Source of the DNA: Candidatus Gastranaerophilales bacterium
GTDB lineage: Bacteria; Cyanobacteriota; Vampirovibrionia; Gastranaerophilales; Gastranaerophilaceae
Assembly (NCBI GenBank): GCA_944324405.1
Contig: CALUWF010000001.1
Location: 186,001-250,000 of the forward strand
Direction of reading: 5' to 3'
DNA length: 64,000 nucleotides
Positions 5,432-59,790 of this stretch are shown here, in pieces (the stretch's first letter is position 1; the number at the start of each line of letters is the position of its first letter). The notes under the pieces are model-generated. The model was not told the origin of the DNA and searched no databases. It worked only from the letters and a program-made list of their open reading frames with translations. The position numbers and the translations under genes are program-made.

Positions 5432-6826
5432 ATGGATTATAAAACACTCTACAATTTTATGCTAAAACTCACTTCCGCTTTTGAAAAATCAAAAAGCAGA
5501 AAAGATTTTATTTTGGGGCTGGAAGCTGCTTTTTCAAAGGTTTTGCGCATAGAAGGCATAAAAATATATACTCTTGATGAATTTTCATACGTTTTAAAAG
5601 ATTTTGAAAAGCCTTGGGAAAATTTAAGCGATGACGGGCAAAACAAAAAAATCCAAGACGTTCTCAATTCTTTTGTAGGTTCAAAAGAAAGCGCGAAACT
5701 TGACGATATAAATATATACATTCCGGTTTTTGAAGAAACAAAAATCCTCGGGCTGCTTGAAATTACTCTTGAAAGGCAAATAACCCCCGATAATGAATTT
5801 TTTGAAATTGTTCCCCTTGTACAAAGGCAGATTTCATACGCCGTTTTAAATTTTAAATCCGGCGAGAAAATGAAACTTAACACAAAATTCTATAAAACAA
5901 TCAGAAATATAGCAAAAATCATCGAAACCCAATATGAATTAAGCTATATCCTGCCGATTTTGGGCGAGATGATAGACAGCTTTATTTACGAACATTTAAT
6001 TTACATCTTTATAAAAAATAAAAATAAAAAAGAATTTAAACTTGTTTGGCCCGCCAATATTAAAGACTCAAAAATCTATTCTTACCTTGAACAGCTTAAT
6101 TCCAAATCCGGCGTTACTCTGGAGCGCGAAGGAAAAGTGGGCATTTTCCCGCTTATAAGCGAACAAAAGCTGCTTGGCGCCGTTGTTGCGTATAATCCTT
6201 TTGATAAATTAAACGAAAATGAAATAAATTATCTTGATGAAATTTCAAAACAGGCCTCTATTACAATTGAGCGGGCACTTGGGTATATGAAAATTTTAAA
6301 AGACGCAACGCTTGATGCGCTCACGGGGCTAAATAACCGCCATCAGTTTGCCATAAGGCTAAGGGAAGAAACGGCAAGCGCAAAAAGGCAAAATACTCCG
6401 CTTTGCTGCATTATGACGGATATTGATTTCTTTAAAAAAGTAAACGACACATATGGGCATGCCGTGGGCGACTGTGTATTAAAAAATGTTGCACGCACAA
6501 TTAAAAAAGAATTACGTGAAAATGATATTCCCGCGCGATACGGCGGTGAAGAATTTGCCATCCTACTTCCGCATACCACCCTTGAAGAAGCAACTTTGGT
6601 CGCACAAAGGCTCAGATGTGCAATTGAGAAGAAAAAAATAAATATTGAAGAATACAATATTGAAGGCACAAAACAGCTTAATGTAACAATTTCAATCGGC
6701 GTGAGCGCATATAATAAAGCGCAAAAAGAGCCGGAGCAGCTTTATCAAAACGCCGACAAAGCTCTTTATGAAGCAAAAGAAGGCGGCAGAAACAGGGTTG
6801 TTGTTTATAATCCCGATAAAAATTAA
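5432..6826 (+). CDS. GAF-like sensor / diguanylate cyclase (GGDEF domain)
   Basis: Predicted to make the second messenger cyclic di-GMP from two GTP. About 290 N-terminal residues look GAF-like, with an alternating pattern and a TIERAL helix before the catalytic part. The GGDEF domain follows (about residues 295-460) with LTGLNNRHQF, DIDFFKKVNDTYGHAVGD, the active-site motif GGEEF near residue 370, and the closing ADKALYEAKEGGRNRV. No RxxD inhibitory site is obvious ahead of GGEEF. There is no membrane segment, so it is cytosolic. It ends a three-gene operon with two TPR proteins, and its last 4 bases overlap the convergent S24-type repressor. PilZ and HD-GYP proteins elsewhere in the window are possible partners. 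Confidence 0.92.
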   Translation: MDYKTLYNFMLKLTSAFEKSKSRKDFILGLEAAFSKVLRIEGIKIYTLDEFSYVLKDFEKPWENLSDDGQNKKIQDVLNSFVGSKESAKLDDINIYIPVFEETKILGLLEITLERQITPDNEFFEIVPLVQRQISYAVLNFKSGEKMKLNTKFYKTIRNIAKIIETQYELSYILPILGEMIDSFIYEHLIYIFIKNKNKKEFKLVWPANIKDSKIYSYLEQLNSKSGVTLEREGKVGIFPLISEQKLLGAVVAYNPFDKLNENEINYLDEISKQASITIERALGYMKILKDATLDALTGLNNRHQFAIRLREETASAKRQNTPLCCIMTDIDFFKKVNDTYGHAVGDCVLKNVARTIKKELRENDIPARYGGEEFAILLPHTTLEEATLVAQRLRCAIEKKKINIEEYNIEGTKQLNVTISIGVSAYNKAQKEPEQLYQNADKALYEAKEGGRNRVVVYNPDKN

Positions 6827-7404
6827 TCAGCCTGCCTTACAAGGCAGTGAAACTTGCCTAAAATTTCCATATTATCTAAAAGTATCTCGCTGAGCGTAAT
6901 ATCGTTATAGTCTTTATTGTCGGATTTTAAAATCACACTGTTTAAATTATTCAATATTCTTTTTATAAAAAAATCTCCGCGATATTTTATTAAAAAGACT
7001 CTGCCATCCTCAATATCTCTGTATTCTCCGTCAAAAACCGCAAGATCGCCTTTGTTTATATATGGCGCCATAGAATCCGTATCCACTTTTATGGCAAGCG
7101 GCGCCTTGGGTTTTGATTTTGAAAAATCAGGCATAAAAATATAAGTAGGGTCTTTTTTAATTTTTAAATTTTCGTAATATGGAATTTTTATAAAATTTTC
7201 CGGTAAAAAATTATCTTCCTCGCTTAAATTTACCCCGAAAAATTCTTCTATCTTTCGTATTTTTTCTTCGCTCAATATTGAATTTTTTGAAAAAAGCTGC
7301 GACACGTTAGAACGCGTCGTATCTATCGCTTTTGCAATATCCCCTTGGGAAATATTAATATTTTTAATCCTGCGGAGTTTCTCCTGCACCTCTTTAATAT
7401 GCAT
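6823..7404 (-). CDS. XRE/S24-type transcriptional repressor (C1/LexA-like)
   Basis: 193 residues: an N-terminal helix-turn-helix (about residues 18-45, ISQGDIAKAIDTTRSNVSQL), a linker, and a C-terminal S24 peptidase-like domain. The Ser-Lys dyad appears intact as Ser111 in TDSMAPYINKGD and Lys148 in DFFIKRI. I see no clear Ala-Gly or Cys-Gly self-cleavage site in the linker, so autocleavage is uncertain. The gene is divergent from the giant prepilin-like gene at 7615. The gap holds a strong rightward promoter flooded with ATTAAG/CTTAAT inverted repeats, the natural operator candidates. It could be a domesticated phage-type repressor. Confidence 0.88.
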   Translation of the reverse strand: MHIKEVQEKLRRIKNINISQGDIAKAIDTTRSNVSQLFSKNSILSEEKIRKIEEFFGVNLSEEDNFLPENFIKIPYYENLKIKKDPTYIFMPDFSKSKPKAPLAIKVDTDSMAPYINKGDLAVFDGEYRDIEDGRVFLIKYRGDFFIKRILNNLNSVILKSDNKDYNDITLSEILLDNMEILGKFHCLVRQAD

Positions 7405-7413
7405 GGTTACTTT

Positions 7414-7465
7414 CTTAATATTTATTAAGTTTTAACTTGACATTTATTAAGCAATAACTTAATAT
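7414..7465 (+). promoter_or_regulatory. Rightward promoter with overlapping inverted-repeat operators
   Basis: TTGACA (7437-7442) and TAATAT (7460-7465) are separated by exactly 17 nt, a near-perfect housekeeping-sigma promoter reading toward the prepilin-like gene. Within and beside it lie four copies of the half-site CTTAAT/ATTAAG (7414, 7424, 7446, 7458), arranged as two inverted pairs with 4-nt and 6-nt spacers. There is also AAGTT-TT-AACTT at 7427-7438. The placement suits repression by the divergently encoded S24-type regulator and probably autoregulation. That the regulator binds here is inference. Confidence 0.65.
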
Positions 7466-7614
7466 GTTCATAGAAAACGAATAGTTAACTTATCGGGTCA
7501 TAAGGCACGCAAATTTTGCGCGCAGTATTTGCTGTTTATTTAAACATCATAAGGTGTTTGAGTAAATTAGTAAATAGAATGTTTATTTTTTTTAATTAAT
7601 CTGGAGTAATTAAG

Positions 7615-9990
7615 ATGCGAAACCTATTTTACGGCACTTCTGCCGCATTTTTTGGCGCACTTTTGCGCCCCAATATACATAAAAACCATCACAAGAAACC
7701 GCTTTTACATGCATTCACTCTTGCTGAATTACTTACGGCGGTTTTAATTATCTCGGTAATAATGGTAGCGCTCGCGCCGGTCATAACAAAGCGCATGAAA
7801 GATTCAATCTCCATTGAAACAGACAGAAAAAAAGGTGAGGAAATCTGGACAAACCCCGGCGCATACACCTTTCAAGTACCCGTTGGTATTAATATACTTG
7901 AAATCTCAGGCGCAGGAGGCGGAGGCGGCGGGGCAGGCGCTGTTTCAAAAAATTACTCTAAAAATTACCAAGGCGCGGGCACAAGGACAATCACCGTACC
8001 AAAAGGCGTTTCACAAATAACCTTTACCCTTGTCGGCGCAGGAGGCGGAGGAGGCGGGGCAAATGCCAAAACCGGAAACGACCCGTGTAAATTTCCCTTA
8101 ACAATTCCCTCGGCCGCTGACAGCGGAAAAGACCTCTGTGTTTCAAATATGGAACCTGCGGAAGGATATAATATTTATTTTGATGTTATAAATAACCCTG
8201 CAACAAGAGCCAGCCGCGAAACGGCATGCTGGCGTGCAATTGACGGTGCAACAGCAACAATTGGAGGTTGTTCTGAAACTTCCTGGCCTTCTGCTTCCCC
8301 TTATTTTGGCGGCGGGGGATGCAGAAAAACTCTCTGTACAGCCGAGGGCGCTTATCGATTTTGCGACAGAGTTTCCGAATGGAATGGCGAGGACTATGTG
8401 GGCGGCGTTGCATACAGGCTTATGAGCCAGAATGAAGTAAAATTATTGTATACAAACGGGTTAAATTCAAATCATAAATGGATATTCGGGCAGGGACTTG
8501 ACCTTGCAATGCACAAATACTGGGGCAGCGAAGTTGTCGGCAGCCGCTATACCCAGGGAAACGAAGCTTACGGGTGTCAATCTCCAATAACCTCTGTTTG
8601 CCAGCCATTCTGCTTTCATATAATCGATGGCGTCGGCTGTTTATATGACGCAGACTACTGGGGCTCAAACGGAGGAAAAAAACCAAGTTATGAAGCAATA
8701 GGAATTACTTTTTTTGACTCATCAAATAGCCGCTCTGGGCAGGTGCGCTGCGTGCGCGAGCTTAACAACTGGTATGCTTACTCTGGCGCAGGCGGTGCAA
8801 CCGGCGCAAAACTCACAAAAACAATAAATGTACAGCCGGGCGACACCCTTATTTTCACAATCGGAAAAGGCGGGAACGGAGGCTCTAAAGGAGGCGGCAC
8901 GGGCGTACAGGGCGGCTCAACATGCCTTGAACACAAAAGAAACGGAACACGTTATCAAGACAGTGAAATTCCTGAAAATAACGGATATTACTGCGCTTAT
9001 GGCGGATATGGCGGAGGCGGAGGCACAACAAGCGCAAACGGCAAATCTAACACCAATCTTGCAGGCTGCACACACAACAGCGGATGTACAAAATCAATAA
9101 ATGCACAGGAAAATACAAGCACCTATCAAGGCGGAGCAGGCGCGGGCGAAGGCGGCGGAGCAGGCGCAACACCTGACTTGGGAGAAAATAACACCCCCGG
9201 ACTTGGTTTTAATGCAACAGGCACAAGCTCGGGCGGAGGCGGAGGTTTTTGCCAAAGAGGCAACAGAACACCTTCTAACTGCCAAAAGGGCGGGAGCGGG
9301 AGCGACGGTAATTTTACAATATCATTTGACCAGTTTGCATCAGGCGGAGGCGGAGGCGGAGCAGGAGCCGCGGGCACGTCGCAAACCGGGGATTACAAAC
9401 CGATAAAAATAAAGGTAAGCGGCGGTGAAACAATTGTATTTACAATAGGTGCCGGAGGGCTTGGCGGCCAGATTGCAACAAACGGAGAAAACGGACAGGA
9501 TACCGTTATCGCAACAAAAAACAACCCGGAAATATTTACGTTTAAAGGCGGGTTGGGCGGCAAAACCGGAACATTTAATTCAAGCTGCGCATACGACACT
9601 CTTGGCTGTGCAAAGGGCGGACTTGGCGGAAGCGGCGGCAAACGTCCAAACCCCGCACTCACTCCGGGAAGTTATGTTTATGAGGCCGTCGCAAATGAAA
9701 TCAACGGCGGAAGCGGCGGAGGCGACACAAAGGGATTTTTCGGCGGCATGGGCGGCGCAACCGCGCTAATAAATACCGGCTCTTGCGGCGGATATGTCAC
9801 GGATAATGACAACACCTGCGCAAAATATGACCCGGACGGAAACAGCGGAGCAAAACACAATCCCATTACAAATCTCCTTGGCGGACAAGGCGGCGGAGGC
9901 GGAGGCACCGACGGCAAAGAAGGCGGACTTGGCGGAAGCGGCGGAAACGGTTTTGTGAGAATTAAATGGGATGAAGCAAATAACGAATAG
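7615..9990 (+). CDS. Giant glycine-rich prepilin-like surface protein 1
   Basis: 791 residues. A long leader (about 33 residues) ends at a type III (prepilin) signal A|FTLAELLTAVLIISVIM, with Glu at +5 of the mature protein and Ala rather than Gly at -1. Next come glycine-rich modules in which a beta-strand ends in a Gly run (ITFTLVGAGGGGGG, DTLIFTIGKGGNGG), as in glycine-rich domains of phage fibres and adhesins. Inserted in the first module is a Cys-rich domain (about residues 157-385). Its segments AYRLMSQNEVKLLY and SGQVRCVREL recall the C-type-lectin/FGE-like fold of FISUMP-type domains. The RBS GGAG precedes the ATG. Predicted to be a secreted minor pilin or adhesin. A paralogue lies at 56858-59440. 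Confidence 0.85.
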   Translation: MRNLFYGTSAAFFGALLRPNIHKNHHKKPLLHAFTLAELLTAVLIISVIMVALAPVITKRMKDSISIETDRKKGEEIWTNPGAYTFQVPVGINILEISGAGGGGGGAGAVSKNYSKNYQGAGTRTITVPKGVSQITFTLVGAGGGGGGANAKTGNDPCKFPLTIPSAADSGKDLCVSNMEPAEGYNIYFDVINNPATRASRETACWRAIDGATATIGGCSETSWPSASPYFGGGGCRKTLCTAEGAYRFCDRVSEWNGEDYVGGVAYRLMSQNEVKLLYTNGLNSNHKWIFGQGLDLAMHKYWGSEVVGSRYTQGNEAYGCQSPITSVCQPFCFHIIDGVGCLYDADYWGSNGGKKPSYEAIGITFFDSSNSRSGQVRCVRELNNWYAYSGAGGATGAKLTKTINVQPGDTLIFTIGKGGNGGSKGGGTGVQGGSTCLEHKRNGTRYQDSEIPENNGYYCAYGGYGGGGGTTSANGKSNTNLAGCTHNSGCTKSINAQENTSTYQGGAGAGEGGGAGATPDLGENNTPGLGFNATGTSSGGGGGFCQRGNRTPSNCQKGGSGSDGNFTISFDQFASGGGGGGAGAAGTSQTGDYKPIKIKVSGGETIVFTIGAGGLGGQIATNGENGQDTVIATKNNPEIFTFKGGLGGKTGTFNSSCAYDTLGCAKGGLGGSGGKRPNPALTPGSYVYEAVANEINGGSGGGDTKGFFGGMGGATALINTGSCGGYVTDNDNTCAKYDPDGNSGAKHNPITNLLGGQGGGGGGTDGKEGGLGGSGGNGFVRIKWDEANNE

Positions 9991-10027
9991 TTAATAGTAC
10001 GAAATTTATTTTCATTTTTCGTATCTT

Positions 10028-10058
10028 GGGGTGCGCTTCCAGGTATTGCACCCCTTTT
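10028..10058 (+). terminator. Intrinsic terminator after prepilin-like gene 1
   Basis: GGGGTGC (10028-10034) pairs with GCACCCC (10048-10054) and is followed by TTTT. The loop contains GCTTCCAGGTA, closely matching the loop of the terminator-like hairpin downstream of the paralogous prepilin gene (56511-56568). Confidence 0.8.
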
Positions 10059-16539: not shown

Positions 16540-17958
16540 CTAAAACTTAAAATCTCTTTCCCCTTGTTCGATTTTTTTGAGATTTTCCTTTACGGTTTGT
16601 TTTATTTTTTCATTTTTAATAAGTTCAACTTCCTTTGCAATGAGTTTTTCGCCTATTGCCTTTGTTTCATCGGACGCATAGTCTTGAAGATATTCTTTTA
16701 GTGTCATAATTGCATTAGGCTCGCAAAAGTTATGTATCTGTTGACTTTTGCAGATTTCCATAAACCTTTCGCCCGTTCTTCCTTCCCTGTAGCAGGACGT
16801 GCAGAAGCTCGGCATATAGCCCAATTCCATAAGCCACCTTATAACCTCATCCAGAGGGCGCCTGTCCGAAACATCAAACTGCGAAGAGTCCTCGCTGTCG
16901 GGCATTGGTTTATAATATCCGCCAACGCTTGTTTTTGAGCCGCCCGAGATTTGCGAAACACCCAGACTTAAAAGCTTTTCCCTGCACTCTTTTGATTCTC
17001 TCGTTGAAATTATCATACCGACATAAGGAGCCGCAATTCTAATGCAGGCAACAATTTTGGCAAAAGTTTCATCGTCTATGCCGTTATCAAAAGCATCAGG
17101 GTCGATGTCATCGGCATGTTTAATCCTCGGCACGCTTATCGCATGCGGCCCTACGCCAAATGCGGCTTCCAGGTGTTCGGCATGCATTAAAAGCCCTGCA
17201 AATTCGTACCTGTATAGTTCAAGCCCGAACAAAACCCCTAAGCTGACATCGTCAATGCCCGCTTCCATCGCCCTGTCCATAGCTTCGGTGTGGTAGGCAT
17301 AGTTGTGTTTGGGGCCTGTGGGGTGAAGCTTTTCGTAGCTTTCTTTATTGTATGTTTCCTGAAATAAAATATATGTGCCGATTCCCGCATCATGCAATTT
17401 TTTGTAGTTCTCTACCGTTGTTGCGGCGATATTCACATTCACCCTTCTGATAGAACCGTTTTTGTGTTTAACGTCGTAAATTGTTTTAATAGAGTCCAAA
17501 ATATACTCAATAGGATTGTTAACGGGGTCCTCGCCCGATTCAATGGCGATACGCTTGTGTCCCATATCTTGCAGTGCTTCGACTTCTTTTCTTATTTCAT
17601 CCTGAGTCAGTTTTATACGCGGAATATGTTTGTTTTTAAGGTGATAAGGGCAGTAAACACAGCCGTTTACACAGTAATTTGAAAGGTATAAAGGCGCAAA
17701 AAGCACTATCCTGTTGCCGTAATAATCTTGCTTTATCTTTCTTGCCAACGCAAAAATTTCCTCGTTTTTCTCCGGTATTTCGCAATCAAGAAGAACTGCC
17801 GCTTCTCTGTGGCTTAAGCCTTTCTCAAGCCGTGCTTTTTTAAGAATTTCATCAATTACTTCAACATTATTTTTATTTTTTTGCGCATATTCAAGAGTGT
17901 CCAAAATTTCCTGATGGGAAATAAATTCTTCCGCCTTGTGTGATTTGGGATTATACAT
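16540..17958 (-). CDS. hydG: [FeFe]-hydrogenase maturase HydG (radical SAM tyrosine lyase)
   Basis: Cleaves tyrosine to give the CO and cyanide ligands of the hydrogenase H-cluster iron. 472 residues, the exact family size. The radical-SAM triad is CVNGCVYC (Cys96, Cys100, Cys103). The C-terminal auxiliary-cluster motif is CTSCYREGRTGERF... with the third Cys in HNFC 22 residues after the CxxC, which separates HydG from ThiH. GAGGT precedes the ATG. HydE, HydF and a hydrogenase large subunit are not in this window. Its presence implies fermentative H2 metabolism, consistent with an anaerobe. Confidence 0.95.
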   Translation of the reverse strand: MYNPKSHKAEEFISHQEILDTLEYAQKNKNNVEVIDEILKKARLEKGLSHREAAVLLDCEIPEKNEEIFALARKIKQDYYGNRIVLFAPLYLSNYCVNGCVYCPYHLKNKHIPRIKLTQDEIRKEVEALQDMGHKRIAIESGEDPVNNPIEYILDSIKTIYDVKHKNGSIRRVNVNIAATTVENYKKLHDAGIGTYILFQETYNKESYEKLHPTGPKHNYAYHTEAMDRAMEAGIDDVSLGVLFGLELYRYEFAGLLMHAEHLEAAFGVGPHAISVPRIKHADDIDPDAFDNGIDDETFAKIVACIRIAAPYVGMIISTRESKECREKLLSLGVSQISGGSKTSVGGYYKPMPDSEDSSQFDVSDRRPLDEVIRWLMELGYMPSFCTSCYREGRTGERFMEICKSQQIHNFCEPNAIMTLKEYLQDYASDETKAIGEKLIAKEVELIKNEKIKQTVKENLKKIEQGERDFKF

Positions 17959-46577: not shown

Positions 46578-47867
46578 TTATGTAATGGGAAAATAGTATT
46601 CAACAAGATAGCTTGCAGCATCAAAAGGGTGAGAGAGAAATTTCAATTCTTTATTATTTTTTATTGCATAATAAGTGGGAATATCAATAACAGAAGCCCC
46701 TTCGCGATATTTTAGATTATTCAGGTTATAAATTAATTTCTCGCATTTGGGATCAATTAAAATTCTTACCTGCCCCTCCATAGACTTTATCATGGAACAA
46801 AAAGCCGCTACTCTGTTTTTAATCGGAGGATTAAAGCGCCTCAGATGAAATTCTACATTTCTTTTCATTTTTTGCTCAAAAAAACTGCGAATAATCATAT
46901 AATTTGTGTACTCACTCACACATGTGCGATTGTCGCCTGAGGCATCACCGTTTATAATAATTTTTCCTTTATGATAAGGGTATCTGCGCGCAAACTCCTC
47001 GCAAGTATGAAAAGTTGTAGTATTTTCAAGGACAATTTCATCAAAAAAATAAACTTTATGGTTGTCAATATGCGCTAAAATCCAACACATCGGATCCACG
47101 TTAAAATCACATGTAATATGAAGGTCGCACATATCAAGATAATTAACCTTTCGGATATTTTCCTCGCTGAAATTAGGCACCACAAGCGGGCAGTTATCCT
47201 CCTCAAATTCCCCCAACACATTCTTTTTATAGTAATTTTCATCGTATGCGCTTTTTAAATTTTCGCAAAAACCCTCGGGCAGATAAATATTTTCGGTTGA
47301 AGGCGCGTAAACAATACGATAATTTTGCTTTTTATTATCGTAAAAATTTTTGTAAATCCAGCCGCGCCTGCTCTGCGGGTTTGTATGCCCAAAAATTCTG
47401 TATTTAAAATCCTTCCAATATTTTTTCTTTTTCTGGCGCATACGTCCCAAAAGCATTTTAAAAGTAGCCTCGGGTATGTCGGACATCTCTTCGATTTCGG
47501 CAAAGCCCAAATTAAGCGATTTTAGTTTATTTGGTTCGTCAAAATGACGAAAAAGAATATTTGAGCCGTTTTTAAAGACAATTTTTTGTTCGGATTTTAT
47601 AAACTGCCAGTCGCTGCCTTCCTTAAGTCCGAAATTTTCAAAATGCTCAAAATAACTCAAAAGTGTTGTATCACGCACGAGAGTATATGTTTGCGCGCCG
47701 CAAAGTCCGTTTATACCCGGAAATTTAAGACATAAAAGTGTCCCCAAAAGCGACCCGGCCCAGGTTTTACCCGAGCCGAATCCTCCTTGATATACACACA
47801 CGTCTAATTCCTCATTATGCGGGACTTCAAGAAACTTTTTCTGTGTTTTAAGGAGTTTGTACTTCAT
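46578..47867 (-). CDS. Phage terminase large subunit
   Basis: 429 residues; DNA-packaging motor. Walker A is QGGFGSGKTWAGSLLG, Walker B GFAEIEEMSD, a C-motif-like FGHTNPQS, and the nuclease Asp residues lie in CDFNVDPMCW and INGDASGDNR. The ATG at 47867 has AGGAGGT upstream and overlaps the portal gene by 20 nt. Full length with no stops, so probably functional. Confidence 0.92.
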   Translation of the reverse strand: MKYKLLKTQKKFLEVPHNEELDVCVYQGGFGSGKTWAGSLLGTLLCLKFPGINGLCGAQTYTLVRDTTLLSYFEHFENFGLKEGSDWQFIKSEQKIVFKNGSNILFRHFDEPNKLKSLNLGFAEIEEMSDIPEATFKMLLGRMRQKKKKYWKDFKYRIFGHTNPQSRRGWIYKNFYDNKKQNYRIVYAPSTENIYLPEGFCENLKSAYDENYYKKNVLGEFEEDNCPLVVPNFSEENIRKVNYLDMCDLHITCDFNVDPMCWILAHIDNHKVYFFDEIVLENTTTFHTCEEFARRYPYHKGKIIINGDASGDNRTCVSEYTNYMIIRSFFEQKMKRNVEFHLRRFNPPIKNRVAAFCSMIKSMEGQVRILIDPKCEKLIYNLNNLKYREGASVIDIPTYYAIKNNKELKFLSHPFDAASYLVEYYFPIT

Positions 47868-49533
47868 TTTGCACACCTCCTGAAATTTGAGTATCATCTA
47901 TTAGAAATTTTGAAGTATTTTCGACACCCAAACTTAAAAGCGCATATTTAAAGCATTCCTGCCAGTTTATTTTTTGTGCAACACTTTGAATTTTTGAAAA
48001 TTCTGAAATTGTTTTTTGAATTTCTCTGTATTTATTTTCCCGCGCAAGGCTTGTTTTTCTGTCTGAGTATTTATATATAAAATTGCCTTCGCGAACATCC
48101 GGTGTAATTTCAAGTACAACCGGTTTGCCCTCGCTTATGGTGCTTATTTTGCTTGTGCCCATCATAAAATTTGCATACGTTGCGGCTGTTTTTTCAAGAA
48201 GAGGGATAATTACTTTTCTGTTGATGGCGTCAACAAAACTGTTAAGGCGCGCATTTTGCCCGCTTGCCGTATAGTTTAACTCCGTTGCGGTGCGCTCGCC
48301 TGCCTGCTGCACGCTTCCTGCCATATTGTCAAAAACTCCCGTTGCGCGCTCAATTTGGCTTTTAAAAAATTTTATAAATTCCCATCCGCCAAGCATTGCG
48401 CTAAAGTTAAGGGGCTGAGGCATTTGAGGCAAAAGTGCCGAATCGTATTCAATAATTTTGCCCGGTTTAACTTCGATTTCACCCCTAAAAGCACCTTTTG
48501 GCGCAAGGAAAGGAGGATTTGAAACAAGCTTGTGTCCTAAAATCTGAGTCTGCATAATATCACATGCCGCACTAAGAACGGGGATAACAGGAGCAAGAGG
48601 GCTTAATCCGCGCTTTGTCAAAGGGTCGCAGATAATATTTGCATAGATATAAGGACAGCTTACATAAGGATTGGGTTCGTTTTGGATTACGGCAGTTCTT
48701 CCCGCCACAACAACAAGACGATTTTTGAGTATTTTACCGCTTTCAAGCCTTATATCGCCAAAGTATTTCAAAACTTCAACAAGCCCGTCCGAAATTCCCG
48801 TTGTATCCTTGTCTTTTTTTGAACGCTCAAGCAGAGTGTCAAGCTCGTCTTTTGTCTCTTTTGTCATGGTAAAATTCTCTTTATTTTCAAGAATTTCGTT
48901 TATTTCCATATAGCTTCTTTGAATTTTCGGACAATTATCCCACCTTTTTGCCCTTTTTGTGTCAAAAACAAAATCACTTGATGAAATAACCTTTAAAGAA
49001 GCGCCTTCATAGGTTTTTTCTTTTATGATTTTAAAAGGATTTAAAAGAGGGTTTTGAATTTTCTCATAAAGCGATGTTGCACATCTTTTCTTGCGCCATC
49101 TTGTTTCCCAGCCCACAAAAAGCACAACTTCGCCCGTGAGGATTAATTTGTCTATAATTTCTTCCAACTTGTCCGAAAATTTCATCTTCTCAAGCGAATT
49201 GCACAAAAAAAGCTTATGGGCATTTGCGCGCTGCGAATTTGAATTATCTAATTCGCACACATCAAAAAGCCCCTCCGGATAGGATGCGATAGCCTCAAGC
49301 AGATGTGCTTTTAAAGTTGCCGCCTGTTCCCAGCAGTCAGGCAGATTTAACTTTTTTGAACCGAGTTCGCCATGAGAATAAGAGCCAAAAATAGCATCGT
49401 TAACGCTTTTTATATGTGTAAGCTGATTTCTCCTCGCTTCGTTTAATTTGTCAAATTTCTCACAAATTTTATTTTTAATTTCTTCAAGTTCATCGCCGCT
49501 TAATTTTACGGGCTCAAAATCGTCATATTTCAT
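47848..49533 (-). CDS. Phage portal / head-tail connector protein
   Basis: 561 residues. Portal features: long alpha-beta stem with DPLTKRGLSPLAPVIP, an N-terminal CWEQAATLKAHLLEAIA, and the C-terminal wing/crown with QQAGERTATELNYTASGQNARLNSF, typical of podovirus connectors. ATG at 49533 with AAAGGT upstream, 13 nt after the small terminase stop. Confidence 0.85.
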   Translation of the reverse strand: MKYDDFEPVKLSGDELEEIKNKICEKFDKLNEARRNQLTHIKSVNDAIFGSYSHGELGSKKLNLPDCWEQAATLKAHLLEAIASYPEGLFDVCELDNSNSQRANAHKLFLCNSLEKMKFSDKLEEIIDKLILTGEVVLFVGWETRWRKKRCATSLYEKIQNPLLNPFKIIKEKTYEGASLKVISSSDFVFDTKRAKRWDNCPKIQRSYMEINEILENKENFTMTKETKDELDTLLERSKKDKDTTGISDGLVEVLKYFGDIRLESGKILKNRLVVVAGRTAVIQNEPNPYVSCPYIYANIICDPLTKRGLSPLAPVIPVLSAACDIMQTQILGHKLVSNPPFLAPKGAFRGEIEVKPGKIIEYDSALLPQMPQPLNFSAMLGGWEFIKFFKSQIERATGVFDNMAGSVQQAGERTATELNYTASGQNARLNSFVDAINRKVIIPLLEKTAATYANFMMGTSKISTISEGKPVVLEITPDVREGNFIYKYSDRKTSLARENKYREIQKTISEFSKIQSVAQKINWQECFKYALLSLGVENTSKFLIDDTQISGGVQNEVQTP

Positions 49534-49546
49534 AGTAAAACCTTTC

Positions 49547-49951
49547 TTAAATTTTATCCGGGTCCAGCCCTTCAATGCTTTCAAATATTGATTTTTTCGT
49601 CTTAATTTCTTCATATTTACTTGTACCGAGCTGCTTACAAAGACCGTCAAGTGCCCTTAGCGCAAGCTGCGGCTCTCTCAGACCGTTTTCATCCTCAAAA
49701 AAAGCGTACTCTATTATTTTTAAATACTTTTGCACAACGAATGCTTTTGTGATTTCCAATTTTTTAACGCTTTTTTTGATAATCTCGTCAAGAACTTTAA
49801 GACATTTTGGGTCATCCAAAATTTTCTTTACATTTGTAACAGAAGCTTGATTTGTATATCCTGCAAGCTGCGCACTCAGCGCACAGTCAAGAGTTTTGGC
49901 ATAATTTTCAAGAAATTTTTTTTGATTAATATTAATATTTTCTTTATTCAT
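49547..49951 (-). CDS. Phage terminase small subunit
   Basis: 134 residues. N-terminal DNA-binding helices typical of terminase small subunits (NQKKFLENYAKTLDCALSAQLAGYTNQASV) and a helical oligomerisation part. Its leader, about 200 nt, contains the predicted plus-strand antisense RNA at 50012-50062. First gene of the terS-portal-terL set. Confidence 0.85.
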   Translation of the reverse strand: MNKENININQKKFLENYAKTLDCALSAQLAGYTNQASVTNVKKILDDPKCLKVLDEIIKKSVKKLEITKAFVVQKYLKIIEYAFFEDENGLREPQLALRALDGLCKQLGTSKYEEIKTKKSIFESIEGLDPDKI

Positions 49952-49976
49952 TTTTTAATATTTCTTAATAAAGTCA

Positions 49977-50005
49977 TTGCAATTTATGAATTAATTATGT
50001 ACAAT
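49977..50005 (+). promoter_or_regulatory. Plus-strand promoter inside the phage-like cluster
   Basis: TTGCAA (49977-49982), 17-nt spacer, TACAAT (50000-50005). No open reading frame follows; the transcript would meet a strong terminator after about 50 nt. Confidence 0.5.
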
Positions 50006-50011
50006 AAAGGT

Positions 50012-50062
50012 GTTGTTAATGCTTCGGCTAGTATGCGAATGGGGTTTCGACCCCTTTTTTTT
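50012..50062 (+). ncRNA. Predicted short antisense RNA (about 50 nt)
   Basis: A plus-strand promoter at 49977-50005 and an intrinsic terminator GGGG-TTTCGA-CCCC plus T8 at 50041-50062 define a transcript of about 51 nt. It is complementary to the leader of the small terminase mRNA. The region also has TGCGAAT (50034-50040) inverted at 50080-50086. Existence is inferred from signals only. Confidence 0.4.
50041..50062 (+). terminator. Plus-strand terminator of the predicted antisense RNA
   Basis: GGGG (50041-50044) pairs with CCCC (50051-50054); loop TTTCGA; T8 follows. Confidence 0.75.
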
Positions 50063-50100
50063 GTCCGGTTCTTAAGGTAATTCGCACAACAAAAGCAATA

Positions 50101-50137
50101 AAAGCCCCGGCACGGCTTTATTGGAGCGCACCGGGGT
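50101..50137 (-). terminator. Terminator after the capsid/scaffold genes
   Basis: On the minus strand CCCCGGTGCG pairs with CGTGCCGGGG (one wobble-type mismatch) and is followed by CTTTTATT, about 10 nt past the stop of the scaffold-like gene. Confidence 0.8.
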
Positions 50138-50146
50138 AAAATAATC

Positions 50147-50794
50147 TCAGCTGTTTTTTATGAGGTTTAATATTTGTGCGTCAATTTCGTCTTTGTGCTT
50201 TAAAAATTCCTCATTTGACATTTTATCTATGTCGCTTGCGCTGTAAAAAGGCGTGCTTTTAAGAGTGCCTTCAACTCCTTGGTCTGCCGAATTTTCAAGT
50301 TTATTTAAAAATTTGGAATTTTCATTCATGAGAAATTGCGAATATTTTGGATTTTTAGCACAAAAACGCTTAATTGCCGCTTCTTCTACAGCTTTTGTGA
50401 GCTTCGCTATTTTTGCAAGCTCATCCGCGTCAAAATCGGTGTTTATAGAGTTTAAATATTCAAAAAGAATTTCGCGTTCTTTAAAAAAATCAGGATTTTC
50501 ACTCATAAATTTTTCAAAGACCTGCGGCATGCTGTTTTCTTTTTGAATTTGCCCGTTGTTTAAAGCAGGTTTTATTTGATTTAAATTATTTACATTTTTA
50601 ATGTTAGAAGCCGCAAGGTTCTGGGCATTATTTAAATACAAGGACTTTAAGAGAGCTTCCAAGGATTCTCTCAAGCCGGGCATACTATTCGATGTTGTTT
50701 GACGTTGGTATGGGCTTGCCTGTGCCGATAAGGTGTTGGGTCTTTGCCCCAAAAGCGCCTTCATTAAAAGTTCTTGAACCATATTATCTTTCAT
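50147..50794 (-). CDS. Probable scaffold-like phage protein
   Basis: 215 residues: hydrophilic, Asn/Gln-rich N-terminal third (PNTLSAQASPYQRQTTSNS) and charged helical C-terminal part (KFMSENPDFFKEREILFEYL, DELAKIAKLTKAVEEAA). No hydrophobic core or known motif. Size, composition and position next to the coat protein suggest an internal scaffold; assignment is contextual. Confidence 0.6.
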   Translation of the reverse strand: MKDNMVQELLMKALLGQRPNTLSAQASPYQRQTTSNSMPGLRESLEALLKSLYLNNAQNLAASNIKNVNNLNQIKPALNNGQIQKENSMPQVFEKFMSENPDFFKEREILFEYLNSINTDFDADELAKIAKLTKAVEEAAIKRFCAKNPKYSQFLMNENSKFLNKLENSADQGVEGTLKSTPFYSASDIDKMSNEEFLKHKDEIDAQILNLIKNS

Positions 50795-50826
50795 CTTATC
50801 CCTTCCTTTAACCTAGTTTTACGTAC

Positions 50827-50847
50827 GTCCCTTCGGGGACTTTTTTT
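50827..50847 (+). terminator. Plus-strand terminator between scaffold and coat genes
   Basis: GTCCC-TTCG-GGGAC with T7 after it; the UUCG tetraloop is very stable. It faces against the minus-strand phage genes. Confidence 0.7.
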
Positions 50848-50918
50848 ATGGGGTTTTTGCAAATTTGCAGGGGCAAAACTACAGCCTGTATTTTTAATGT
50901 CCGGCTGCAAAAAGCCTC

Positions 50919-51791
50919 TTACAGTTCGCATTTTAAAACCGCAAGCGCTTTTGGATTAACCGCAAGAGCACCAAAGGTATAAAGACCTCTTACAATTGTG
51001 TCAAAGGATTGCTCTGCTCTTATTTGTTCGAATTTTTTCAATTGGGAAGCGTAAGTAATCCCCTCTGTTGTGCCTGCCATAATCGTATAGCTGTCATCTT
51101 CTTCATCTTTTCCGACATTGTTGCTTACAAATACATCAAGCCCTGCTATTCTGCCGATTGAGCCTTCCTTTTTAGCTTTGTCCGATTCATTTGAGGCACC
51201 CGAGAACTGTTCGCACAAAAGTAAAATCTCTTCCACATCAGGATGCACCACAACCCAGCCGTGTTTTTGAGCTGTTAGTGCGCCTGAATTTTTCAACAGT
51301 TTTGCAAGGGAAACAAACTGAGAATAAACATTGGATGAGCTTAATGTCAGGGGTGTTGAAGACTGTCCTTGAATAATGTTATCGCTGTCAACTTTAGAGT
51401 TAAGGGAGAAAATGTATTTATCAATCGCTTCATCGATTGACTTTTGTGCTTTCTCAAGAATTGTTTCACCAAGGGCAATGTTGGTCTGCGCCTGTGTAAT
51501 ATCAGGCACACTGAAAGCAAAATAAAGACTTTGGTCAAGTTTTAAAACATCACTTGAAAAACTTGCCGCACTGTAAGCGGGAAGGGTTCCCGTATAAGTG
51601 CCCGTTGCAACGCTTTTAGGTGTTGCAATTTTAATTTCCGCCGTTCCTTTGTCTGCATCTGCCTGATAATCGCGATTTACACACTGTAGCATGGTGCAGG
51701 TTTTGTCAAGGCCCGAGTTAATTTTTTTGCTCCAAGTTGAAACAATTAAACTTGCGTAATTTTGTGCAGGTGTTGTTTGTTGTTCTGACAT
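50919..51791 (-). CDS. Major capsid (coat) protein
   Basis: 290 residues. Coat-like texture: AEIKIATPKSVATGTYTGTLPAYS (N-terminal arm and strand), DITQAQTNIALGETILEKAQKSIDEAIDKYIF (spine helix), WVVVHPDVEEILLLCEQF, IAGLDVFVSNNVG and GITYASQLKKFEQIRAEQSFDTIVRGLYTFGALAVNP. These fit P22/T7-type HK97-fold coat proteins by pattern. Good Shine-Dalgarno; the scaffold-like gene is downstream. Confidence 0.82.
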   Translation of the reverse strand: MSEQQTTPAQNYASLIVSTWSKKINSGLDKTCTMLQCVNRDYQADADKGTAEIKIATPKSVATGTYTGTLPAYSAASFSSDVLKLDQSLYFAFSVPDITQAQTNIALGETILEKAQKSIDEAIDKYIFSLNSKVDSDNIIQGQSSTPLTLSSSNVYSQFVSLAKLLKNSGALTAQKHGWVVVHPDVEEILLLCEQFSGASNESDKAKKEGSIGRIAGLDVFVSNNVGKDEEDDSYTIMAGTTEGITYASQLKKFEQIRAEQSFDTIVRGLYTFGALAVNPKALAVLKCEL

Positions 51792-51828
51792 AATTTTTCC
51801 TTTCTTTTCTTATGCGCCCCCGCAGGCT

Positions 51829-52368
51829 TTATAATTCAAATGCGGGATTAAATTTTGTAAATAAGTATAAATCCTCTGTTTTTTCACCTCTGAAACATTC
51901 ATCTTTTAAAACGGCTTCAAGCTCAAAGCCGAGCTTTTGTATCAGCCTTCTTGCGCAGCTTTTGTTGCCGACCGTTTCAACGGTTAATTTTCTTACTTTC
52001 ATTTCTTCAAATAAAAACCTGATTGCGCGTTTTGCCATAACGTAAGAGCCAAAACCCCAGTACGGGCGGCATATGCAAAATGTCACCTTTGTATCAAAAA
52101 AACCTTTCGGCGCGGGCCTTGTTTCATAAAGATATAAAAAGCCCGCAAATTTTTCTTCATTATTTAAAAGTACAAAATAAATATGGTTTTTGAATCTGTG
52201 TATGAAACGCAAAAAGCGCTCTACGCTTGAAAAATTCAATTTGAAAAAATCCGGGTCAAAAAGCATTGTATGATATTTCAAACAGAGTCTGAAAAAATCA
52301 ACGAGTTCTTTTTGTCTTATTTTCTTAAAATTTATTTCAAATAAATCACTCAATTTATCTATTTTCAT
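51829..52368 (-). CDS. GNAT-family acetyltransferase within the phage-like cluster
   Basis: 179 residues. GNAT fold with acetyl-CoA loop PYWGFGSYVMAKRAIRFLFEE and VETVGNKSCARRLIQKLGFELEAV. Substrate unknown. Podoviruses often carry a GNAT-like virion-associated protein near the capsid gene, and RimJ-type modification is another option. It follows the same direction as the coat gene with a 37-nt gap. Confidence 0.8.
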   Translation of the reverse strand: MKIDKLSDLFEINFKKIRQKELVDFFRLCLKYHTMLFDPDFFKLNFSSVERFLRFIHRFKNHIYFVLLNNEEKFAGFLYLYETRPAPKGFFDTKVTFCICRPYWGFGSYVMAKRAIRFLFEEMKVRKLTVETVGNKSCARRLIQKLGFELEAVLKDECFRGEKTEDLYLFTKFNPAFEL

Positions 52369-52389
52369 TCTTGCCTCAATTGTAAATTT

Positions 52390-52902
52390 ATGGTATTTTT
52401 AACTTGTTTATATTGGAGAATGTGCATTATGCAAAATGATGAAAAATTTCTTGTTTTAGAACAGTACAGAATATACTCGGAAGCCAAAGAAGCTTTTACG
52501 ACAAGGAATTTTCAAACAAACAGATTTTATCTTATACTTTCCCTTGTACTGTTTTTGCTTTTATATGTATTTTATGCACTTACTCCGTCCCTTATGCCGC
52601 TTATTGTCGGTTCTATCATCGGCATGTCGGTGTGTGTAATGTGGTGGCTCAATTTGGACAGTTATCAATTTTTAATTAAAATAAAATACGCCAAAGTCTT
52701 GGAAGAAATCGAAAATCTTTTGCCCACAAACCCTTACAAAAAAGAGTTTGAAGCATTTTGCGAAGCCAAAAAGAATAAAAGAGCGGTTGTGTTTTCGGAT
52801 TTCCAAAAACTCCTCGTAATAGTTCTTTTCTGCGTATTTTTTGTAATTTTCTCAAATAACGTGACTACTTTTGCGCTGAATTTCTTCAAAGCAGGTTTTT
52901 AG
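52390..52902 (+). CDS. Plus-strand membrane protein inside the phage-like cluster
   Basis: 170 residues, three membrane segments (FYLILSLVLFLLLYVFYALT, SLMPLIVGSIIGMSVCVMWW, LLVIVLFCVFFVIFSNNVTT). It is transcribed against all neighbouring phage genes; its last 4 bases overlap the end of the tail adaptor gene. In placement it resembles a 'moron' (accessory cargo gene). The ATG at 52390 or 52432 (MQNDEKF, closer to a GGAG) are both possible. Resembles small conserved membrane proteins of unknown role. Confidence 0.75.
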   Translation: MVFLTCLYWRMCIMQNDEKFLVLEQYRIYSEAKEAFTTRNFQTNRFYLILSLVLFLLLYVFYALTPSLMPLIVGSIIGMSVCVMWWLNLDSYQFLIKIKYAKVLEEIENLLPTNPYKKEFEAFCEAKKNKRAVVFSDFQKLLVIVLFCVFFVIFSNNVTTFALNFFKAGF

Positions 52903-53561: not shown

Positions 53562-53570
53562 TATTCCTCC

Positions 53571-53801
53571 TTAAATAAATCCTAAAAATTCATATTTAAA
53601 TCCGCAGTATACAAACCTATCCAGGCCTTCAAGATATATTTTTGAAGCAAGTTTCTTCCCGCGAAGGCTGCATTTTAAATCTTCCAACAGTTTATTTGAA
53701 CGGATTTTAATTTTAAAATTAGTGTGCAGAGAGCTTTTTATCCATATTGCACGCTCTTTCAGCATTTGTTCGTATTCAAAGTTGCCATGCTTAAAAGTCA
53801 T
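53571..53801 (-). CDS. Small hypothetical phage protein
   Basis: 76 basic residues (KSSLHTNFKIKIRSNKLLEDLKCSLRGKK segment). Overlaps the tail nozzle gene by 11 nt and is 9 nt ahead of the adaptor gene, so it is translated with them. No motif recognised. Confidence 0.6.
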   Translation of the reverse strand: MTFKHGNFEYEQMLKERAIWIKSSLHTNFKIKIRSNKLLEDLKCSLRGKKLASKIYLEGLDRFVYCGFKYEFLGFI

Positions 53802-56018: not shown

Positions 56019-56243
56019 TTTTCTTCCTCGTATGGGGCTGGAATTATTCATATCAGCAAACAGGGCAAAAAATATAAATGTATTTTCCGCAGTTAATTTA
56101 TAATTTTCGACGGCAGACTTTTTGGATAAAAAAATTGATAAAAATTGCGCAAAGCCTTGCGGGGGCAGTTTTTTTCAAAGTGAAAAAAATTAATAAAAAT
56201 TTGAACAGATTTATCACTTTTATCCTCAATCAAATTGCCGTAA

Positions 56244-56510: not shown

Positions 56511-56568
56511 AAAAAAACGGGGCACTGTTGCTAGATATTTTTTGTATACCTACCTGGAGCGCGCCCCG
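56511..56568 (-). terminator. Terminator-like hairpin downstream of giant prepilin gene 2
   Basis: On the minus strand CGGGGCGC pairs with GTGCCCCG (one wobble), then T7. Its 5' arm and loop (GCGCTCCAGGTA) and the preceding TTCGTATCTT match the terminator of prepilin gene 1. The loop is about 40 nt, larger than in copy 1. Confidence 0.6.
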
Positions 56569-56628
56569 AAAGAATTAAGATACGAAATTGGTTTTAATGT
56601 CATTAGAGCAAATATTCTTTTGTTAACC

Positions 56629-56710: not shown

Positions 56711-56736
56711 ACTAATAGTGTATGTTAGTATGTTCT

Positions 56737-56853: not shown

Positions 56854-56857
56854 CACT

Positions 56858-59440
56858 TCACTCTTGTTCGCTTGCATCCCATCTTATCCTCAGATATCCT
56901 GAGGACCCTGAACCTCCTGATCCGAGTTCAAAGGAGTCATCAACAACTCCTCCTCCCCCTCCTCCTGATCCTCCGAATTCATTGTTTGCCGCATCATGGG
57001 ATTTAGCGTTATTACCGTTGATATTTCCTGTTGTACAGATATATTGCTGCGGGTCGGTCTGCACTCCGTTATTACCGCTTAGTCCACCGCCGCAGGTTAT
57101 TGCCACAATTACATTGTTTTGTAAAATTCCAAAAGGCGAAGCGCCCGCACCGCCGTCAAATCCGTAAATAAACGGTGCAATACCCCTGCTCTGCGAGCCT
57201 TGTTTGCCATCATCGCCTTTATACTTTGTATTAGCTACGGTATAACTTACATTACTTGTGTTTACATCAAGACCCAGTGCGTTTGAACCGCTGTAACTTT
57301 TATATTCCGTTGTTATATAAGAGCCAAGCCCTCCCTTACTTTTGTAATTTGTATTATCAATACAATTTGCAATAGCTGTTGATGAAATATTTGTACCGAT
57401 ACAGGAATTTAGCGAGTCTTTTTGTGTCTGGGTCACAGCCTTTGCGCCTTCTCCTGCAAGAAAAATAATCTCTTCATCGCCAATTACCGTCGGCATGCCG
57501 TTTGCGCCGTCCTGAGCAGCGGCACCGCCCGCACCGCCTGCACCCACTTCAAATACAATCCTTGAACCTTCTTTTACCTTGTATTTAATCTCATGTGCAA
57601 CCCCCATAGAATTTACACCCCCGACTCGGGTTCCCGCGCCGCCGCCTGCACCTGGCAGCATAACGGTGTATTTGATTTCAATTTTACCATCAGCACCGCT
57701 GCCGCCTTTTTCACAAGATGTTTTACCCCTTGCACAAAAGCCTCCGCCGCCGCCAAAGCCGCTTTGTGTCGCGCTGTAGCCCCTTCCGTTTACGGTATCA
57801 CCGCTATCTAAAGCAGCTCCCTTTGCTGCACTGCCTTCATTTTTAAATTTTCCGCCTTCTCCTGCATAAACTATCGCTTTATATCTGTCAATTGTATTTC
57901 CGTCATCTCCGTCTTTACCGGCATAGGATAATATACTACAGGTTTTGCTTGTTGTATAAGTGCTATCCTGTACTTTATTTTTAAATTTTGCATAACAAGT
58001 GTCATCGGATGTTGCTTCGGCGGTGTTTACGCCTGAAGAACCCGATTTTGCCCCTTCTCCGCCGAGTCCGCCCTTAACATAATAAGTGCCAAGCACATTT
58101 GAGCCGCGTTTATGCACAAGCTGCGTCGTGCCGCCCTGTTTCCCGGCACCTCCCTGCGATGAACCCCCTTCGCCGCCTTTGCCGATTGTTATCTCGAGTT
58201 TATCATCAGGCAAAACATTAATTGATTTTTCAAATCCTGCACCGCTGTAACCGCCTGCGCCCGAATATAATTCACGCACAGTCAGATTTCTGACACACAA
58301 AACAGAATAGGCATGGGTAGTTCTATCGCCCGTATGCGCTTCATCATACCAACCTTGATTGTGTACATAGCCGGCATCTAAATATATGCCAAGGTTATAA
58401 CAGTAATTATTTGAAGAACCGGTACAAAAATTTGCAAAACTACAGCGCGGAAAAGCAATAGGTGTTGTATTTAAATTTACATCAGCATGTTCCCAAAAAC
58501 ACAAATCAAGACCGTTTGCACCAAGATATTGAGGCGCAAATTTAACAATATTATTATATTCGTTTTTAGACAGCAGTCTGCCCATCGCAATATTTTTTGT
58601 ATTATTAGGAAGTGCAGCGACAGATTCAAAAGGAAAATTGGGATCATGCCCCTTTGCATAACCGCACCACATATTATTCGCCGCACGTGTACATTGGATT
58701 GCACCGCATTCATAACCTTTGTTGTAAATATTTTTGTTGCAGCCCGTATATGTATAGTTACTTATCCAACAACAGCTATCACCCGAGCATTGCTCATTTT
58801 TGCCTTTGACAATCCAGGTATACTGAGATGTTTCCGGCGCCATTTTTGTGACACAAAGGTCTTGGCCGTTTAGTGCCATATATGGAATTCTGTTTGAGCC
58901 CGGCTGACAGCTTCCGTAATAGTCCGAGGCCGTTTTGTAGTACCCGCCGCCTCCGCCGCCTCCTGCGCCTGTTATTGTGAAAGTTAGTTTATTCACTCCT
59001 TTTGGCACTGTCCAAGTTGTATTTGATGTAATGGTAATTGATTTATCTATTGATGTGGCTCCTGCTCCTCCACCGCCACCTCCTGAGCCTTGAAGGAAGA
59101 GAGTATTAATACCGATTGGGACATCAAAAGTATAAGTACCGGGGTTTGTAAATATTTCTAAACCTTTTTTGTTGTCTGTTGTTACTGATACTGTATCTTT
59201 CATTCTTTTTGTAATAACAGGGGCTAAGGCTACCATGATAACAGAGATAATAAGAATTGCCGTTAGAAGTTCGGCAAGGGTAAAAGCGGGTGTTTTATGC
59301 TGTTTATTATTGTTTTTCAGCGTGCACTTATAAGACCCTGAAACCGGTTCAGGGTGACAGCTGAGCGTTAAATTGTTGTTATTTGCAAGAGTGAAAGCGC
59401 TTTTATGCGTGCGATTATTATAATTAATTGCCTCTTTCAT
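56858..59440 (-). CDS. Giant glycine-rich prepilin-like surface protein 2
   Basis: About 860 residues. Same architecture as the protein at 7615: a type III signal A|FTLAELLTAILIISVIM after a very long leader (about 52 residues), glycine-rich beta modules (KLEITIGKGGEGG, IVFEVGAGGAGG), and a Cys-rich inserted domain (about residues 165-400) ending SVLCVRNL. The leader contains an earlier AFTLA copy followed by residues encoded by a palindromic repeat (SCHPEPVSGSYK). ATG at 59440 has TGGGGA upstream. Predicted secreted minor pilin/adhesin. Confidence 0.82.
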   Translation of the reverse strand: MKEAINYNNRTHKSAFTLANNNNLTLSCHPEPVSGSYKCTLKNNNKQHKTPAFTLAELLTAILIISVIMVALAPVITKRMKDTVSVTTDNKKGLEIFTNPGTYTFDVPIGINTLFLQGSGGGGGGAGATSIDKSITITSNTTWTVPKGVNKLTFTITGAGGGGGGGYYKTASDYYGSCQPGSNRIPYMALNGQDLCVTKMAPETSQYTWIVKGKNEQCSGDSCCWISNYTYTGCNKNIYNKGYECGAIQCTRAANNMWCGYAKGHDPNFPFESVAALPNNTKNIAMGRLLSKNEYNNIVKFAPQYLGANGLDLCFWEHADVNLNTTPIAFPRCSFANFCTGSSNNYCYNLGIYLDAGYVHNQGWYDEAHTGDRTTHAYSVLCVRNLTVRELYSGAGGYSGAGFEKSINVLPDDKLEITIGKGGEGGSSQGGAGKQGGTTQLVHKRGSNVLGTYYVKGGLGGEGAKSGSSGVNTAEATSDDTCYAKFKNKVQDSTYTTSKTCSILSYAGKDGDDGNTIDRYKAIVYAGEGGKFKNEGSAAKGAALDSGDTVNGRGYSATQSGFGGGGGFCARGKTSCEKGGSGADGKIEIKYTVMLPGAGGGAGTRVGGVNSMGVAHEIKYKVKEGSRIVFEVGAGGAGGAAAQDGANGMPTVIGDEEIIFLAGEGAKAVTQTQKDSLNSCIGTNISSTAIANCIDNTNYKSKGGLGSYITTEYKSYSGSNALGLDVNTSNVSYTVANTKYKGDDGKQGSQSRGIAPFIYGFDGGAGASPFGILQNNVIVAITCGGGLSGNNGVQTDPQQYICTTGNINGNNAKSHDAANNEFGGSGGGGGGVVDDSFELGSGGSGSSGYLRIRWDASEQE
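59333..59359. repeat. Palindromic repeat inside the prepilin leader coding sequence
   Basis: ACCCTGAA-ACC-GGTTCAGGGT is a near-perfect palindrome, translated in frame as HPEPVSGS. Its ends (TGTCACCCTGAAC / TTTCAGGGTCTT) match the element at 56629-56710. The AFTLA codons occur on both sides. Confidence 0.75.
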
Positions 59441-59468
59441 GTAAATTCCCCATTTGTAATAAGTAACA

Positions 59469-59484
59469 TGTCTATATATAGACA
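59469..59484. promoter_or_regulatory. 16-bp palindrome between prepilin gene 2 and its HTH gene
   Basis: TGTCTATATATAGACA is a perfect dyad 30 nt from the prepilin start and 34 nt from the HTH start. AACATGTC occurs just at its side (59466) and again at 59522. It is the best operator candidate for the adjacent regulator. Confidence 0.55.
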
Positions 59485-59517
59485 ACCCTAAAATATTTTA
59501 TCATTAGAATTCTATAT

Positions 59518-59790
59518 ATGCAACATGTCAATTTTGAAAATTCGGGGCAAATTTTTCAGGCTCTTGCAAAAGTAATCCGCACAAGGCGCGAAAGCCTTGG
59601 CAAATCGCAACGGGTACTTGCCGATGAGTTCGCTTTTCAGCGCTCATTGCTCTCCAGGCTTGAAAACGGGGTAAATGAGCCCAAACTCGTTTCTATTTGG
59701 ACGGTGTCGGAGGCTCTGGGGCTTAAACCTTCCGAACTTATTAAAATGGTGGAGGATGAGCTTCCAAAAGATTTCAGTTTGATAGATTAA
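59518..59790 (+). CDS. XRE-family HTH regulator divergent from prepilin gene 2
   Basis: 90 residues. Cro/C1 HTH (VIRTRRESLGKSQRVLADEFAFQRSLLSRLENGVNEPKLVSIW). No peptidase domain, unlike the S24 regulator of prepilin locus 1. The ATG has no clear Shine-Dalgarno, suggesting a short leader or leaderless mRNA. Its 3' end overlaps the next minus-strand gene by 4 nt. Confidence 0.85.
   Translation: MQHVNFENSGQIFQALAKVIRTRRESLGKSQRVLADEFAFQRSLLSRLENGVNEPKLVSIWTVSEALGLKPSELIKMVEDELPKDFSLID

Follow-up and report, generated by a model that had tools for sequence, protein, structure and literature searches.

Silent-cassette gene conversion operates in the pilE/pilS system of Neisseria and the vlsE/vls system of Borrelia, where promoterless partial cassettes stand beside an expressed surface gene. 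At the locus described here, promoterless partial cassettes likewise share the frame of an expressed gene and have conserved flanking anchors, and the gene holds a copy of one of them. The locus differs from those systems in that its array lies at a diversity-generating retroelement (DGR) with an intact reverse transcriptase (RT) and Avd and in that the gene encodes a glycine-rich giant pseudopilin. With DGRs, both those of the Bordetella phage BPP-1 type and cellular ones, the genome under study (G000) shares an RT with DGR-type motifs, Avd, and a target at the end of a putatively CLec/Lcl_C-like domain, and its congeners further share a template lying on the strand of the RT, with substitutions directed at adenines. 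Unlike these DGRs, G000 and a genome of a second genus (G037) contain no detected adenine-rich template but instead a silent array of cassettes resembling variable regions (VRs), and the match between cassette and gene is nonmutagenic. Remote DGR targets are known from other bacteria (PMC10907252, PMC7517822). The accessible part of the report by Yan et al. 2019 (PMC6642488) describes highly repetitive TR/VR DGRs with high-identity TR-VR pairs and few A-to-N changes; these resemble the present case in having many TR-VR pairs in one genome, but that part describes no silent VR-like cassette library. Our literature search, in which subscription papers and preprints were thinly covered, returned remote DGR targets and no DGR with silent VR cassettes. 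The giant proteins themselves are like type IV prepilins and pseudopilins in their FTLAELL-type N terminus and hydrophobic helix but unlike them in their length of 800 to 1,000 residues, their glycine-rich shaft with an inserted domain, and, for those of the window, N_methyl scores below the cutoff.

The window is the whole 64,000-nucleotide stretch of DNA that was analyzed, and G000, a genome of Candidatus Gastranaerophilales, is its own genome. An initial annotation had described an S24-type regulator diverging from a giant prepilin-like gene, and both open reading frames were recovered at the coordinates given there, with their Pfam domains and a prepilin-like N terminus (Table 1). The regulator scored 61.3 bits for Peptidase_S24 and 32.8 bits for HTH_3, both above the cutoff; the HTH and S24 domain composition of a LexA/CI-type repressor is present. 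The giant protein scored 43.8 bits for Gly_rich_2, also above the cutoff. Its N_methyl score of 13.8 bits was under the cutoff of 21.2, yet FTLAELLTAVLIISVIMVALAPVITKRMKD is a clear prepilin-like N terminus; the second window gene reached 17.9 bits and the DGR-adjacent paralog discussed below 24.3 bits. The promoter of this unit is a consensus match of a class that is no more common than expected from shuffled sequence. Orthologous intergenic regions keep TTGACA amid flanking repeats similar to TATTAAGTT and AACTTAATA, and the inverted repeats over the promoter are likely to be an operator, for which they are the candidate. The repressor may switch its neighbor, in keeping with the "switchable adhesin" of the initial annotation, and the giants are presumably displayed at the cell surface. 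A switch operated by DNA damage was not borne out, as direct reading of the linker in the window S24 protein and two orthologs found neither an Ala-Gly nor a Cys-Gly cleavage dipeptide.

Table 1. Positions of the features discussed (window coordinates unless a contig or locus is named)
Feature	Position	Strand	Basis or remark
HTH_3 + Peptidase_S24 repressor, unit 1	6823..7404	-	193-aa ORF, Pfam
Promoter TTGACA-17-TAATAT (7437-7465) with overlapping inverted repeats TATTAAGTT...AACTTAATA	7420..7470	+	Consensus match
Giant prepilin-like protein, unit 1	7615..9990	+	791-aa ORF; diverges from S24 gene
Prepilin signal and hydrophobic helix FTLAELLTAVLIISVIMVALAPVITKRMKD	7714..7803	+	Nearly invariant in 14 window-type paralogs
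Inserted Cys-rich domain, residues 157-385	8083..8769	+	Fast evolving; ortholog comparison
Glycine-rich shaft, Gly_rich_2	8770..9987	+	Pfam
Family-type intrinsic terminator, unit 1: TTCGTATC, GGGGTGC-loop-GCACCCC, T run	10018..10058	+	Hairpin GGGGTGC...GCACCCC-TTTT at 10028-10058
Family-type terminator, unit 2	56511..56586	-	Motif match
Giant prepilin-like protein, unit 2	56858..59485	-	875-aa ORF, Pfam
HTH_3 regulator, unit 2	59518..59790	+	Pfam; ortholog kept at site in congeners
DGR-type reverse transcriptase	C1:337047-338216		RVT_1 above cutoff; motifs YVDD and GNLTSQF
Type-B giant, DGR-adjacent	C1:338360-340830	-	Opposite RT
Array of 32 silent cassettes	C1:341.25-350.0 kb	RT strand	Beyond 5' end of DGR-adjacent giant
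Deletion sites TCGGTTCGC -> TCGGTCGC	L031:9673-9690, L109:8360-8380		Two species and four cassettes; truncates giant protein

A second unit of the same plan (HTH gene, giant gene, and terminator of the same type), which had been placed at 56.5 to 59.8 kb, was confirmed at positions 56511-59790. The terminator combination TTCGTATC-N-CTCCAGGTA occurs at seven exact places in the whole genome, and the reversed control gave none. Three of the seven come after a giant, namely that of window unit 2 and two of type B, and the remaining four are near contig starts; the copy at window unit 1 is a one-base variant (CTTCCAGGTA). This terminator type is specific to the family. The loop of both window terminators contains CTCCAGG, which is complementary to the CTGGAG stretch of the ribosome-binding site before the giant start (intergenic positions 7597-7615) and is a possible site of regulatory RNA-RNA contact. 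Rfam searches of the window and the DGR loci returned no RNA family other than tRNA in two congeners. As in many giants, long repeat leaders precede the prepilin helix in the unit-2 giant and at L038:7001-7620 and L041:6157-6640; their repeats, e.g., KKSAFTLA and CHPELVSGSYK, are a dispersed genomic repeat translated in frame.

The initial annotation had spoken of a "duplicated" unit and had proposed a genome-wide search for further copies next to HTH genes. The duplication is real, but the word is too small, as the search found about 21 giant-prepilin loci in this 1.8-Mb genome, many of them interrupted by contig ends. Fourteen are of the window type (type A) and at least five of a second type (type B). 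The 14 type-A paralogs have nearly the same prepilin head and first glycine-rich collar, while their inserted domain is hypervariable. At 17 loci (13 of the 14 type A and 4 type B) a small partner gene diverges from the giant; none is present at C46 or at the DGR-adjacent gene. Most of the partners are unlike one another across the giant copies; 14 of the 17 passed a Pfam cutoff (mostly HTH_3, with one MerR and one S24), 1 gave a weak match, and 2 gave none. Because most members sit behind their own divergent HTH repressor, the pilin displayed is probably set locus by locus. Two gene-conversion-like tracts were found within the family. One, between the middle two of four type-B giants that stand in tandem at L048:3588-13329, extends over 933 nt at 94.5% and spans the inserted domain, the remainder of the genes being more divergent; the other covers 140 nt at 98.6%, where the 3' end of window unit 2 matches that of the C24 gene.

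The pairing of regulator and giant holds in relatives. The window-1 site adjoins a GGDEF gene, and the S24 gene and the giant are both present in G149 (L233) and G066 (L234) and both missing in seven congeners with the same flanking gene (G154, G115, G153, G152, G036, G095, and G133). Most congeners have the same HTH gene at the window-2 site, and the giant beside it is of type A in G000, G149, and G066 and of type B in G154 and G095. The HTH gene marks this locus, and it is the allele of the giant that is exchanged. A cluster of phage structural genes (terminase large and small subunits, head-tail adaptor/portal, major head protein, and endolysin) occupies window positions 46578-56051 and adjoins the unit-2 HTH gene at the same site in congeners (L238, L241, L246), with no integrase noted; it resembles a prophage remnant retained by vertical descent, or else a gene-transfer-agent-like cluster.

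Across three unit-1 orthologs, amino acid identity is.43 to.64 in the inserted domain versus.66 to.94 in the other segments, with first- and second-codon-position change raised in the domain and third-position change ordinary. Judged from these alignments, diversification of the window genes is fast yet ordinary in spectrum and not adenine directed. The initial annotation had proposed a Cys-rich domain, possibly of C-type-lectin fold, inserted in a glycine-rich module, and had suggested comparison with FGE folds as well. The insertion, which lies in the Gly_rich_2 shaft, stands; the fold was not demonstrated, as AlphaFold models of both domain types were of low confidence (16 sequences, pLDDT 62) and Foldseek returned nothing significant. 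The type-B domain matched Pfam Lcl_C (formerly DUF1566) at an E value of about 6e-6, below the cutoff, and its top Foldseek matches, at nonsignificant E values of.13 to.8, were EgtB, OvsA, and ToxD, all FGE-fold enzymes. A C-type-lectin fold is a plausible conjecture.

Elsewhere in the genome, a DGR-type RT lies opposite one of the type-B giants. The RT shares 59 to 72% identity with its counterparts at loci that have TR/VR pairs and is preceded by Avd, which passed the PF22296 bAvd cutoff (45.8 bits versus 40) and scored 44.1 bits for NF033474, under that model's own cutoff. The 32 cassettes of the array all lie inside a single 9-kb stretch of the genome. A cassette encodes no more than the latter half of the inserted domain, bounded by the anchors ACTTTGTGAC...CTCCTCCGCT and TCGGYTCGCTGTGTCC; outside the array, the genome has the anchor only in the DGR-adjacent gene. 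Cassette lengths vary in steps of three, and 31 of the 32 are open in the frame of the gene, versus 1.8 expected from shuffles; the two remaining frames are open in 0 and 3 cassettes. The array closes with a terminator hairpin at C1:350.03 kb. Cassettes c17 and c22 are one base apart with differing spacers. Cassette c24 is internally deleted and clearly decayed and has a template-like 3' flank; it is probably a relic of the original template. Leader-like sequence stands before c00 and before c24, and weak matches to it adjoin the templates of two congeners. This element (..AAACTCGTTT.AGGTAGC..) was seen at L031:11073-11150 and 17649-17725 and near the template in L108 and L109, that is, before array segments and beside single templates, and had no Rfam match at the gathering threshold. 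As assembled, the DGR-adjacent gene is truncated by a 1-nt deletion (TCGGTTCGC -> TCGGTCGC) at the 3' terminus of the variable region. The same deletion is present in the G095 gene and in c06, c24, c26, and a terminal partial copy at C1:349998, and is absent from the G036 gene; it may represent an off state, a homing junction error, or assembly noise. The second RT of the genome (L032:894-3400) is retron-like (best model retron_St85, below the cutoff) and adjoins a phosphoribosyltransferase-like gene with a weak match to an anti-phage family. L119 was considered as a second array and rejected, its repeats being intergenic promoter/hairpin sequence rather than cassettes.

One cassette, c27, matches the variable region of the DGR-adjacent gene at 98.6% over 215 nt; the next best cassette reaches 76%. 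The inner 187 nt are identical; a single substitution lies close to either edge, and the 3' edge also has a 1-nt deletion. All 46 inner adenines of c27 stand unmutated in the gene, for which P is about 5e-7 to 1e-8 when computed at the 27 to 33% per-adenine rates of canonical TR/VR pairs. Because these adenines were carried over unmutated, the copying is unlike DGR mutagenesis; its direction would be from cassette to gene. The cassettes also differ from templates in composition. Asn content is.254 in templates,.053 in VRs, and.046 in the G000 cassettes (p 3e-6 against templates),.042 in those of G037 (n = 119), and.137 in those of G067 (n = 31). Changes between related G000 cassettes affect every codon position and include in-frame indels, with no adenine bias seen among them, and no adenine-rich template with adenine-specific TR-to-VR substitutions was found in G000. 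In these assemblies, all of metagenome type, c27 is the only full-length cassette/gene copy, to which one 61-nt match at a contig edge in G037 can be added. Neither window gene had a cassette or template match, the cassette profile did not match the window, and a genome search in which the window-type domain alignment was used to look for silent cassettes of type A returned only known genes; no test used here marks either of the two window genes as a present-day recipient of cassettes.

At the syntenic locus, congeners carry one adenine-rich template where G000 has the array, and G036 carries a second template at another site. Substitutions fall at template A in 20/21 cases in G095, 14/14 in G036, and 19/20 in G251. 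Several dispersed giants of G095 are A biased, among them the giant of the window-2 locus (34/54 with an A fraction of.29), and therefore the DGR acts in trans there. Arrays were also found in a second genus (g37), with about 119 cassettes on a dozen contigs in G037 and 31 cassettes in short groups in G067. The RT-adjacent gene of G037, cut by a contig end within the variable region, is identical to a cassette at 60 of 61 nt. The cassette profile detected no further arrays among 54 named DGR RT loci, several of which have canonical single templates; the relatives that carry a name are Candidatus Gastranaerophilales. In other genera, the neighbors of related DGR RTs are small type IV prepilins (FTMAEILLSLTIIGVVAAITLPSLTG) that carry a Cys-end domain (L114, L116), which suggests that pilin targeting is common in the order.

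We consider it probable that the window locus belongs to a repertoire of about 21 giant-pseudopilin adhesins in which separate repressors are combined with silent-cassette conversion derived from a DGR. Each giant would be a glycine-rich shaft bearing a Cys-rich binding-type domain, and the repertoire would historically have been the target set of one DGR. In the congeners, the adenine-rich template, Avd, and DGR RT mutate the inserted-domain end of several dispersed giants. In G000 and the second genus, the template site would have become at least one array of silent, in-frame, partial-domain cassettes of VR-like composition, from which content would pass to the DGR-adjacent gene by templated, nonmutagenic transfer. 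The simplest route would be homologous gene conversion between the conserved anchors, in which RecA-type recombination may take part, and the RT may retain a role. It is conceivable, if on balance doubtful, that the RT itself builds and edits the library, with template copies multiplying and A-mutated cDNAs homing into templates and genes until adenines are exhausted; the Asn series from.25 in the template through.14 in the G067 arrays to.04 in those of G037 and G000 would then be stages. If true, a hypermutation device would have become a heritable archive of tested binding domains, read out by nonmutagenic conversion.

Other readings give the array or the window units a different origin. The cassettes might be the many TRs of a multi-template DGR, copied into the gene by the RT through ordinary mutagenic retrohoming. 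The array lies where synteny places the template, on the same strand and adjacent to an intact avd and RT, and a terminator closes it; it may therefore be transcribed. Moreover, c27 and the gene differ by just two base substitutions, each at an adenine of c27, and the G067 cassettes are intermediate in Asn content. We nevertheless regard this reading as unlikely, since the cassettes are VR-like rather than adenine rich, vary among themselves by in-frame indels and at every codon position instead of at adenines, and include one whose 46 inner adenines were copied unchanged. That the array is a functionless graveyard of duplicated pieces, and the window genes an ordinary pilin/adhesin family shaped only by point mutation and selection, would fit the fast domain evolution with normal third-position change in these genes, the decay of c24, and the frameshift in the DGR-adjacent gene; it is improbable in view of the reading frame kept in nearly every cassette, the near-exact match of c27, which no other cassette approaches, and the similar arrays in a second genus. 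Very improbable, and disfavored here, is a phage origin of the units, with the S24 repressor and a tail-fiber-like gene forming a prophage remnant or lysogenic-conversion cassette. The CI-like repressor and the conserved phage structural cluster beside unit 2 would agree with such an origin, but a prepilin N terminus and hydrophobic helix are present in 14/14 window-type members, the partners are XRE, MerR, or S24 depending on the copy, and other copies lie amid housekeeping genes without phage genes.

If the repertoire with DGR-derived cassette conversion is the correct reading, targeted hypermutation by DGRs and antigenic variation from silent cassettes, hitherto seen as unrelated inventions, would meet at one syntenic locus. 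With single-template congeners on one side and similar arrays in a second genus on the other, the passage from DGR to cassettes may be directly open to study. For the uncultured gut Gastranaerophilales, it would be a candidate route for varying about 20 giant surface proteins, most of them with a repressor of their own.
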